NCBI RefSeq assembly: GCF_039908645.1
Contig: NZ_CP150917.1
Coordinates: 2,305,501 to 2,369,500, forward strand
Length of the DNA stretch: 64,000 nt
From: Pseudomonas helvetica
Lineage (GTDB): Bacteria > Pseudomonadota > Gammaproteobacteria > Pseudomonadales > Pseudomonadaceae
Direction: 5' to 3'
In this document: in pieces, positions 4,795-36,793 of the stretch
How positions within the stretch are numbered: the first letter of the stretch is position 1
Layout of the letters: each line of letters opens with the position of its first letter
Position numbers and translations under genes: made by a program
Notes under the pieces: model-generated
Told to the model about the DNA's origin: nothing
Databases searched by the model: none
What the model saw: the letters and a program-made list of their open reading frames with translations, nothing else

Positions 4795-4865
4795 TGGAGC
4801 GGGTGAAGGGAATCGAACCCTCGTTATCAGCTTGGGAAGTTGATCTCATCTAGTGAGACACCCTC
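4795..4865 (-). pseudogene. Decayed tRNA-Gly(CCC)-like sequence, candidate att site
   Basis: Read on the minus strand, the 3' half is an apparently intact tRNA-Gly: anticodon loop TTCCCAA (CCC), GCTGA stem strand, T-arm with GTTCGATTC, acceptor CACCCGCTCCA. The 5' half is degraded. A GAGGGTG at 4859-4865 could pair with the acceptor with one mismatch, but the D-arm region is about 3 nt too short and the anticodon stem has a mismatch. A conserved tRNA 3' half with a scrambled 5' half is the usual result of island or phage integration into a tRNA gene. Confidence 0.6.
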
Positions 4866-8190: not shown

Positions 8191-9132
8191 CTCATAACTC
8201 CCAACTTTGATCAGTTCATCTAGGTGAAATAGGTGCCAAGCTAACTTGTGTTGTAAATTATTAATCGGCCAAACATACAACTCTGAAGCCACGTGTCTGA
8301 AAACCACATCAAGGCATCGCCAAAAAACGATAGTTCACAACCGCCTTCTTCGCTAATTGAGTGGCGTTGCGAAACGCAAATCCAGCGCATTTTCGCCGAT
8401 TGAGTCGAGTGGCTGATTCTGGCCCGATAGCTACCTGTGAGGTGAACCGGGATGGTCCCCCGAATTCACCTCGACATGACTGTCGATTGGCCTTTTGTGT
8501 GCAATCGGTCAACCGATGTCCAATTTCTTCAATCGAGCCAAGCCTTGTTTGATATGGCTGGCGTTTTCACCCATGGTCCACAGTGCTCCACGGACATTTC
8601 CGCCCACTTCCTGCGCCCCTTGCTCCTCAACCAAGAGGGTCAACTCCATAATGGCCGCCTGCAGAGCCGCTGGTTTTCGTAAAGTCTTTCCAGCACGTCC
8701 GGCAGCGAATAATTGTTTGGCATGACGTCGACTCCTTTCGAGAAAAGTACAAGCATAGTACCGGCAGTGCCCTTGTCAGGCAGTAATGGCAGCTTGCTTA
8801 GAAATTGCTACAAAGCGAAGAGGTTTCGGCGGGTTAGCCAGTCTGGCTGGGGCGTTGGAGGAGTACTAGACCCAATCCATCATCGGGGCTATGGGGAGCA
8901 AGTAGAGGAGTTTTTTACGATTGAATCCAGCTTCCAACACACCACACCTTCATCGGACATTTCCCGCAACCCGCATCGGTTCCCGCCGCTTTACCCCCAG
9001 TCACCTCACCAGATAACCTCCTCGCGTCGCTGCAAAATCAGCGACCGGATGTGGAAGTCCGTTCTATAGCTAAAGGCGCCCAAGCGCCCATAAACACATG
9101 TCGGCGTTTTTTATGCCAACATTGTCGTGTTA
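8191..9132. other. Intergenic region with one small decayed gene
   Basis: About 940 bases. The only protein-like trace is the minus-strand helical remnant at 8509-8723. Other open frames here read as low-complexity or antisense sequence, and I do not support them. The right end leads into the structured leader at 9133. Confidence 0.4.
8509..8723 (-). pseudogene. Small helical protein remnant, frameshifted
   Basis: On the minus strand ATG 8723 opens MPNNYSLPDVLERLYENQ, which soon hits a stop. A different frame then carries AALQAAIMELTLLVEEQG, then GGNVRGALWTMGENASHIKQG, ending at TGA 8509-8511. The start and stop are out of register by 2 nt, so a frameshift lies between them. I recall small Pseudomonas proteins with this helical motif, but their role is not known to me. 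It could instead be a shorter intact ORF from the internal ATG at MELTLLVEEQ. Confidence 0.4.
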
Positions 9133-9210
9133 TGGCGGCTGTGCGCGGGGCACTCCCGAGTGCGCCGGGATCCTTTAGCCCCGGTCTTCCACACCTGCGT
9201 ACGGCTGCCA
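9133..9210 (+). ncRNA. Candidate structured leader RNA (three-way junction)
   Basis: TGGCGGCTGTGCGCGGG (9133-9149) pairs with CCTGCGTACGGCTGCCA (9194-9210) over 17 consecutive positions, four of them G-U. Inside are two hairpins: GCACT/AGTGC (9150-9154 with 9159-9163) and GCCGGG/CCCGGT (9164-9169 with 9180-9185). The wobble pairs favour RNA over a DNA palindrome. It ends 55 bp before the DUF6124-type start codon. From memory, similar sequences precede other genes of this type in Pseudomonas. A cis-regulatory role is inferred. Confidence 0.6.
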
Positions 9211-9265
9211 CCCTCATGTGGAAGTGAGATTGGCGGTTCACTGAATTGCTAAAGGAGTTCCACTC

Positions 9266-9565
9266 ATGAAAAAGATCACCCCCAATCCCCCCGAGACCGC
9301 AGCGGTTTCCGACCCCACCACCCACATCTTCACCATCGCCCCCAACATCGACACCGAAACCCTGTTAATCCACACCTCCGAAACCCTCGCATCCCTTAAC
9401 GCCATGACCACCGACCTGGCCTTCGAACTCGAAGGTTCACGCCGCCATGTGGCCTTGGCGATGCAGCAACTGGTTGTACTCAGCGAGTTGTTGGTGAACC
9501 GCGCACTGGAGCACTTCGACACGCCGGATGCGGCATCCGGGGTTTCCTCCGCTGCTCGTCACTGA
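9266..9565 (+). CDS. DUF6124-type small Pseudomonas protein
   Basis: A 99-residue soluble protein with a proline-rich start (MKKITPNPPET), then a conserved core of the form FTIAPNIDTETLLIHTSETL, a mid section with MTTDLAFELEGSRR, and a helical end (VALAMQQLVVLSELLVNRAL). These features are those of the DUF6124 family as I remember it, which is expanded in Pseudomonas. AAAGGAG precedes the ATG. The biochemical role is unknown. It is followed 35 bp downstream by a second small gene and preceded by a structured leader. Confidence 0.7.
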   Translation: MKKITPNPPETAAVSDPTTHIFTIAPNIDTETLLIHTSETLASLNAMTTDLAFELEGSRRHVALAMQQLVVLSELLVNRALEHFDTPDAASGVSSAARH

Positions 9566-9600
9566 ATGCTCACGCTGGTTCATTCACTGGAGGTTCTGCT

Positions 9601-9861
9601 ATGGCTCGATACATGCCGATCACCGGCATTGATTGCACAATTGCATCGCTGTTGATCGACACCGAAGCGCCGGTCGATGTGTTGCACGACACGGCGGCGT
9701 ACCGCATTCGCAGCGTGACGCAATTGCTGGAAACGCTTTCCTTGGGCGAAGGGCTTGGCCGTGATGCGTTGCTGTTGCGGGACTTTGCGCGGGTGTTGGT
9801 GATTCCGCTGCGCGATGGGTGTGATTTGATGGATGTGGTTGGGCGGCGGTTGCGGAGGTAA
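9601..9861 (+). CDS. Small protein, possibly DUF3077-like
   Basis: An 86-residue protein beginning MARYMPITGIDCTIASLL. The centre (VDVLHDTAAYRIRSVTQLLETLSL) looks helical and resembles the core of DUF3077 proteins, which often pair with DUF6124-type genes in Pseudomonas; this is from memory and weak. GGAGG lies eight bases before the ATG. It is probably cotranscribed with the gene ending at 9565. There is no signal peptide, membrane span or catalytic motif. Confidence 0.55.
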   Translation: MARYMPITGIDCTIASLLIDTEAPVDVLHDTAAYRIRSVTQLLETLSLGEGLGRDALLLRDFARVLVIPLRDGCDLMDVVGRRLRR

Positions 9862-9910
9862 AGCAATGGGGTAGCCGTGAGGTTGCCCCTTTTTGGTTGG
9901 GTTGTCCCGT

Positions 9911-10073
9911 CCTGTAGCAGCTGTCGAGCCTGCGAGGCTGCGTCAGGCCTGGGTTGTGTTCGGATGAGGCGGTGGTGAATCAGGAAACGCGTTCCTTCAC
10001 GCCAACCGCGTACTCAGGATTTGCGAGGACTTTGTCCTCGAACGCAGCCTCGCGGGCTCGGCAGCTGCTACGG
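9911..10073. repeat. Inverted pair of Pseudomonas REP sequences
   Basis: CCTGTAGCAGCTGTCGAGCC at 9911-9930 continues into GCGAGGCTGCG, and the near complement (CGCAGCCTCGCGGGCTC, GCAGCTGCTACGG) runs at 10043-10073. A small hairpin CGAGGAC/GTCCTCG sits at 10024-10040. This is a typical REP doublet that could fold into a long cruciform or a bidirectional transcript end. It fills the gap downstream of the small-gene pair. Confidence 0.8.
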
Positions 10074-36277: not shown

Positions 36278-36353
<76 letters not shown>

Positions 36354-36432
36354 ATTTACACTTCAAGGCCTGGCCACACCGGTCTTGAAGCGATCAACAC
36401 TCAGCGTTGATCAGTTGTATAGAAGGGTTTGC

Positions 36433-36508
36433 GTCCCCTTCGTCTAGTGGCCTAGGACACCGCCCTTTCACGGCGGTAACAGGGGTTCGAGTCCCCTAGG
36501 GGACGCCA
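36433..36508 (+). tRNA. tRNA-Glu (TTC), copy 1
   Basis: GTCCCCT acceptor, anticodon stem-loop CCGCCCTTTCACGGCGG, T-arm AGGGGTTCGAGTCCCCT, CCA encoded. 79 bp after tRNA-Ala copy 1. Confidence 0.97.
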
Positions 36509-36561
36509 GTTTTACAGAAGTGATGTTGCAAGATGTCACTCCGCCGCGAGGCGAAAAATCC

Positions 36562-36637
<76 letters not shown>

Positions 36638-36717
36638 ATTTTACAGTTCAAGGTCTGGCCACACCGGCCTTGAATCGATCAGTACTCAGCACTGATCAGT
36701 TGTATAGAAGGGTTTGC

Positions 36718-36793
36718 GTCCCCTTCGTCTAGTGGCCTAGGACACCGCCCTTTCACGGCGGTAACAGGGGTTCGAGTCCCCTAGGGGACGCCA
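36718..36793 (+). tRNA. tRNA-Glu (TTC), copy 2
   Basis: Appears identical to copy 1 over all 76 bases. Followed by a CCGCTCTGCGGG hairpin and a second hairpin with TTTTG near 36823-36851 that probably ends the cluster transcript. Confidence 0.97.

Follow-up and report, generated by a model that had tools for sequence, protein, structure and literature searches.

The window, a stretch of 64,000 nt from Pseudomonas helvetica (contig NZ_CP150917.1, positions 2,305,501 to 2,369,500), carries a structured element in the leader of two small genes (Table 1). The first of these genes, whose ATG at 9266 follows position 9210 by 55 bp, had been called a DUF6124-type gene in the first-pass annotation; both the distance and the family stand, the latter confirmed by the match to PF19619. 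The second, an 86-aa ORF, probably belongs to the same operon; it has 362 relatives, and the named organisms among the best 120 are all Pseudomonas. A profile comparison did not support a common fold of the two proteins (probability 0.1%), PHROGs gave nothing but matches above 0.08 for either of them, and neither matched an entry of NCBIfam or PADLOC. The terminator-like hairpin downstream of the 86-aa ORF is weak when taken alone, because shuffled sequences lead one to expect as many. Further 3' of the operon lies an inverted repeat of 30 nt, 93% complementary, with arms 98 nt apart (9914-9943 and 10042-10071), presumably a REP-type element. Seven nearby ORFs were scanned; one encodes ArsH (384 bits) and another an arsC-like phosphatase (LMWPc, 79 bits) that falls below the NCBIfam arsC cut-offs, and no phage genes were found among the seven. 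Elsewhere in the window there is a genuine known thermometer, a ROSE_3 thermoregulator (RF02523, 39993-40064, plus strand, 72.3 bits with a cut-off of 43), as well as twice-repeated tandem pairs of tRNA-Ala and tRNA-Glu (36278-36793), and a marginal tRNA match on the minus strand (4798-4865, 29.2 bits with a cut-off of 29) that ARAGORN does not call.

Table 1. Features of the C4 locus, in window coordinates.
Feature	Position	Strand	Remarks
Possible -10 element GATAAC	9012..9017	+	found by eye in leaders aligned on the first hairpin; weak
c4-a1b1 target element (RF03163)	9013..9065	+	57.6 bits, cut-off 46.7; first hairpin 9026-9045
Target a1	9050..9057	+	8-nt match to a', -11.8 kcal/mol
Target b1	9069..9076	+	8-nt match to b', -11.4 kcal/mol
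Possible attenuator	9075..9112	+	arm 1 9075-9079 (overlaps b1), arm 2 9082-9088, arm 3 9103-9109 running into T
C4 antisense RNA (RF01695)	9128..9215	+	74.8 bits; P1 9133-9149/9194-9210, P2 9150-9163, P3 9164-9185
C4 loop b'	9171..9179	+	mean P(unpaired) 0.96 in the predicted ensemble
C4 loop a'	9186..9193	+	mean P(unpaired) 0.99 in the predicted ensemble
Target a2	9217..9224	+	8-nt match to a', -11.8 kcal/mol
Linker resembling the 5' strand of stem P1	9231..9238	+	pairing with the 3' strand of P1 possible
Target b2	9248..9256	+	9-nt match to b', -13.4 kcal/mol; overlaps Shine-Dalgarno 9253-9257
DUF6124 gene, 99 aa	9266..9565	+	PF19619, 107.8 bits, cut-off 27
Second small ORF, 86 aa	9601..9861	+	no Pfam family
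Terminator-like hairpin and T run	9868..9896	+	1 found, 1.0 expected from shuffles

The structured element had been described as two hairpins enclosed by a 17-position stem that contains four G-U pairs, and it was read as an RNA. A letter-by-letter check of the two strands of P1 found standard pairing at all 17 positions, with G-U at four, and both hairpins are seen in the predicted fold. The fold energy of -47.9 kcal/mol is to be compared with a mean of -32.4 (sd 3.1) for shuffled sequences (z = -5.03), none of 200 of which equalled it. The RNA reading itself is upheld by the stems, which covary, as those of a selected RNA do, over 61 copies of the element from two genomes. Standard pairs occupy 1277 of 1342 cells, compared with a mean of 1079 and a maximum of 1102 when the 3' partners were shuffled 500 times without regard to relatedness, and 17 of 22 stem pairs show changes on both sides; the covariation count refers to stems P1 and P2, P3 being left out. 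Thus the tests of covariation and stem conservation proposed in the first-pass annotation, when run over these copies, favour an RNA.

The suggestion that this RNA was undescribed had to be abandoned, because the comparison with Rfam returns the C4 antisense RNA family, RF01695, which covers the element over its full length (9128-9215) well above the cut-off of 45. Stem P1 begins with GG at its 5' end, and GG is likewise present at the C4 cleavage site of phages P1 and P7 as described in PMC5320573. The other suggestion, of a cis-regulatory RNA or thermometer, gives way to that of an antisense RNA, since the loops match sites on both sides of the element and this matching is locus-specific in two species, which is the hallmark of antisense pairing. 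No Shine-Dalgarno sequence is held in a stem of the element at 9133-9210, that of the DUF6124 gene lying outside it, and no thermometer family of Rfam matches there; a thermometer or riboswitch was set aside since the loops fit outside sites that change together with them. The structure is a C4 antisense RNA, a member of a known family in a new setting.

The two pairs of target sites flank C4, a1 and b1 within the leader upstream of it and a2 and b2 between it and the gene. From the anatomy of the leader, transcription would start near 9024-9026. A consensus scan of 8900-9900 found no sigma-70 promoter; the alignment that yielded the possible -10 element used a hairpin finder that handled 60 of the 61 leaders and misplaced several rows. 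On its own target the window C4 scores 42, compared with 32.5 for the best of the other 25 C4 RNAs of the genome. When the whole leader (9026-9300) is folded in silico, the mean probability of being unpaired is 0.15 for b2, 0.41 for the Shine-Dalgarno sequence and 0.22 for a1; the leader itself could thus share in any silencing, because b2 is mostly paired in this predicted fold without C4. The linker between a2 and b2 could pair with the 3' strand of P1, a pairing that scores 16.4 at the C4 loci of the two genomes, compared with 11.8 (sd 2.5) for shuffled linkers.

Upstream of C4, arm 2 of the possible attenuator can pair with either arm 1 or arm 3. Such a three-arm arrangement was found in 14 of 61 leaders and in 63 of 1830 shuffles, and a terminator-like stem in 30 of 61 leaders and 419 of 1830 shuffles, the shuffles preserving base composition only; a generic terminator scan did not list the arms at 9082-9109. 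Attenuation as a general trait of C4 leaders was rejected, the third arm being present in those 14 leaders only. The region 9026-9114 also gives a marginal match to isrK (RF01394; 51.0 bits with a cut-off of 50).

The single-contig genome of 6.44 Mb contains 26 C4 RNAs above the cut-off. By hand count 17 of them precede DUF6124 genes, and a further three precede DUF3077 genes, in line with the link to such genes proposed earlier. Of the remaining ones four precede small ORFs, three of which have no Pfam match, the fourth (5890293+) falling outside that scan; one, 425656+, is followed by no ORF; and one (6139037-6139123, plus strand) precedes a Bro-N protein (41.8 bits) of phage-antirepressor type. 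In 25 of 26 cases C4 is followed by an ORF of 59 aa or more (the script threshold being at least 55), and in 24 of these 25 loci the start codon lies 46-56 nt 3' of C4; at 4304758- the script took an earlier ATG at 31 nt, and the start used for pairing was set by hand. The gene after C4 at 5324663- is short and apparently frame-broken. At 4299587-4304552 a C4-led DUF6124 gene is followed by four truncated 3'-end copies, three of them spaced by about 370 bases.

Within the genus, C4 scores above the cut-off in 137 of 149 sampled genomes, this one included, and at least 27 copies are present in 35 of the 149 genomes scored; DUF6124 is above its cut-off in 119 of the 149. A second species, G010, has 35 C4 RNAs above the cut-off, at least 25 of them located no more than 600 nt from a DUF6124 place, as judged from 26 of its 29 such places. 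In a sample of the class, scored at up to 18 places per genome, C4 was found in 15 of 231 other genomes, in one to six copies each.

The specificity of the loops was scored as the sum of a' on a2 and b' on b2, for all C4 RNAs against all targets. In the P. helvetica genome the cognate mean is 36.5, compared with 21.7 (sd 3.6) for non-cognate pairs, and 24 of 25 targets are fitted better by their local C4 than by any other, a result equalled in none of 20000 permutations; the exception is 5321931-, where the local C4 ranks 7th. Taken separately, a' ranks first in all 25 cases (without a tie in nine) and b' in 19 of 25 (without a tie in 16); at the a1/b1 targets the local C4 heads the ranking in 22 of 26 cases, and in 21 of them without a tie. 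These figures come from tighter windows, picked after the weaker ranks of a first scoring whose windows included letters of the stems and in which the own C4 was best in 17 of 25 cases for a2 and 18 of 25 for b2, uniquely in four and 14. Cognate and foreign scores overlap, because the top score among the 625 foreign pairs is 34.5 and 10 of the 25 cognates do not exceed it. In G010 the corresponding means are 38.7 and 22.6; the local C4 ranks first in 27 of 31 loci, in 26 of them without a tie, and is surpassed in four, the 31 being what remained once four of the 35 C4 RNAs with no called ORF were excluded, and including at least one misplaced start (1716203-) and one doubtful ORF (337507-). 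Foreign scores there reach 39.5, between the neighbours 741736- and 741014- with similar loops, and 38. Discrimination between C4-target pairs is therefore strong and incomplete. According to PMC5320573, four nucleotides are enough to separate phage P1 from P7.

Loops and targets evolve more quickly than the gene that they accompany, yet they remain matched. Among seven paralogues the mean identity is 91% for the protein, 88% for the 5'-most 150 nt of the coding sequence and 76% for the C4 stems, and in the same set it is 67% for a', 64% for a2, 51% for the b' loop and 52% for the b2 window. Part of this contrast could stem from gene conversion in the coding part.

From this body of evidence we consider it likely that the C4-type antisense RNA in the leader represses the gene of the DUF6124 operon. 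A single transcript would carry a1/b1, C4, a2/b2 and the genes, in the order observed, and C4 would be excised from it by RNase P, by analogy with P1/P7. The open loops b' and a' would then pair with the sites they are seen to match, b2 at the Shine-Dalgarno sequence and a2, and this pairing would block translation of DUF6124. The upstream a1/b1 pair would offer C4 a further target, serving as a decoy or, in this leader and some others, as a place where bound C4 would favour a terminator over an anti-terminator. With many such cassettes in one genome, loops and targets have co-diverged as judged in silico, so that each C4 would mainly fit its own gene.

It can be argued instead that the leader works in cis only, as a thermometer, riboswitch or attenuator, and that the Rfam match records descent from a phage C4 that is no longer a separate RNA. 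The predicted pairing of b2 without C4 would suit such a device, as would the linker able to compete for the P1 strand and the three-arm attenuator present in the window leader. Against it, both open loops match two sites, and do so in a locus-specific manner over 25 loci in one genome and 31 in the other, for which a cis-only fold has no need; the Shine-Dalgarno sequence, moreover, lies outside 9133-9210. A purely structural leader is for these reasons unlikely.

The DUF6124 genes with no C4 of their own bear on another possibility, that the chief targets of C4 are other genes, reached in trans, with the match to DUF6124 as just one of several. The genome has 30 DUF6124 places, and 13 of them, nine full-length and four truncated, have no C4 directly upstream. 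A c4-a1b1 element lies upstream of six of the nine full-length genes; in five cases it is above the cut-off, and at L039 it has 31.4 bits. For seven of the nine leaders, the fit to each of the 26 C4 RNAs was scored. The leader of 472468- fits the gene-less 425656+ with a score of 39, one of 200 shuffles being as good, when the earlier start codon is used, and with 35.5 (three of 200) when the later one is taken; that of 5133303- fits 2845782- with 35.5 (one of 200). Action on the transcripts of other genes has been proposed for the C4-like RNAs of A. baumannii as well (PMC5320573). No convincing C4 partner was found for the other five leaders scored, with 22 to 84 of 200 shuffles equal to the best, and on the target of the window C4, which itself scores 42, other C4 RNAs do not exceed 32.5. 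Judged by the C4-led loci and these seven leaders, a mainly trans-acting role is improbable, and the two trans pairings are to be taken as leads only, because foreign scores in G010 reach 38-39.5. The gene-less C4 (425656-425742) ends near a convergent 813-aa ORF, 47 kb from 472468-; conservation as an orphan seems unlikely, since its best match in another genome, 5253884 in G010, precedes a gene.

Functionless debris of prophages is a very improbable account of the C4 cassettes: C4 is a phage family, it leads the DUF6124 gene in all of the 16 virus-labelled contigs scanned, and the broken gene at 5324663-, the gene-less 425656+ and the four truncated tandem DUF6124 fragments look like decay, but pairing is retained in most copies in two species, the stems covary, and 25 of the 26 C4 RNAs are followed by an ORF of 59 aa or more.

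A broader picture may tentatively be drawn. Pseudomonas genomes would harbour dozens of C4-guarded cassettes of the DUF6124/DUF3077 type, with loop-target codes that are nearly private and with proteins that are alike; some C4 RNAs would have lost their genes, and some genes would have been left with no C4, two or more such pairs being rejoined in trans (425656+ on 472468- and 2845782- on 5133303-). The whole could form a phage-derived antisense network selected against cross-reaction, as would be the case for competing immunity-like or addiction-like modules; we regard this as possible, somewhat short of probable. Whatever its wider role, the C4 device is found in tens of copies in a single bacterial genome, ahead of the DUF6124 family, and the DUF6124 genes of the genus gain a concrete candidate regulator. 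The diverged RNA-RNA pairs constitute a natural set for learning the rules of antisense specificity.

Among 50,697 phage records one contains DUF6124, as do 35 virus-labelled contigs; no plasmid record does. In 16 of these 35 contigs the region upstream of the gene was scanned, and C4 precedes DUF6124 in every one of them; in one (L149) the neighbouring genes are what we take to be tail-fibre and tail-sheath genes. C4 is also present in two Pseudomonas phage records (L167 and L168), one of them of 10 kb. The cassette may be a small moron-like unit common to prophages and chromosomes. In the literature searched DUF6124 does not occur by name, DUF3077 does in a single paper, and no control of DUF6124 or DUF3077 genes by C4 was found, as judged mostly by titles.

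In P1-like phages C4 serves as the immunity RNA, and in phage P1 the gene whose ribosome site it covers is icd. Both C4 and c4-a1b1 were catalogued for Proteobacteria and phages by Weinberg in 2010 (PMC2864571). In the description of phages P1 and P7 given in PMC5320573, specificity resides in a', and b' sits over the ribosome site, a mechanism also recounted in PMC12197685; in phage P1 both C4 and Icd affect the expression of ant, and Icd blocks cell division (PMC8201110). The window locus shares with the immI region of P1/P7 the fold, the open a' and b' loops, the placement of b' over the ribosome site, and copies of the target both upstream and downstream of C4. It differs in what is guarded, icd and ant there and DUF6124 here, and in the 26 copies of the RNA in one genome; at the window locus no antirepressor operon was found, the genes being DUF6124 and the 86-aa ORF with no Pfam match. 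What is new here is the number of C4 copies and the matched divergence of loops and targets.

Two other phage systems described in PMC4825925 are similar in arrangement. The CI RNA of P4 is flanked by two copies of its target, seqA and seqC, and so resembles C4 as an antisense RNA between two target copies, a likeness drawn from the description of CI; CI differs in that it ends transcription of the replication genes early (PMC4825925). IsrK/STnc1160 of Gifsy-1 has a leader with a short RNA, a terminator and then a processed complementary RNA before a small ORF; its short form switches on the antirepressor via orf45, and its authors proposed a P4 CI-like role for the downstream RNA (PMC4825925). 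The possible attenuator of the window recalls this short form, which is known for IsrK; the gene at the window locus is DUF6124. The closest parallel in copy number is found in A. baumannii, where the C4-like Group 1 sRNAs number 21 in one genome and have variable a' loops (PMC5320573). Their targets are not identified in that account (PMC5320573), while here nearly every C4 adjoins a target that it matches.
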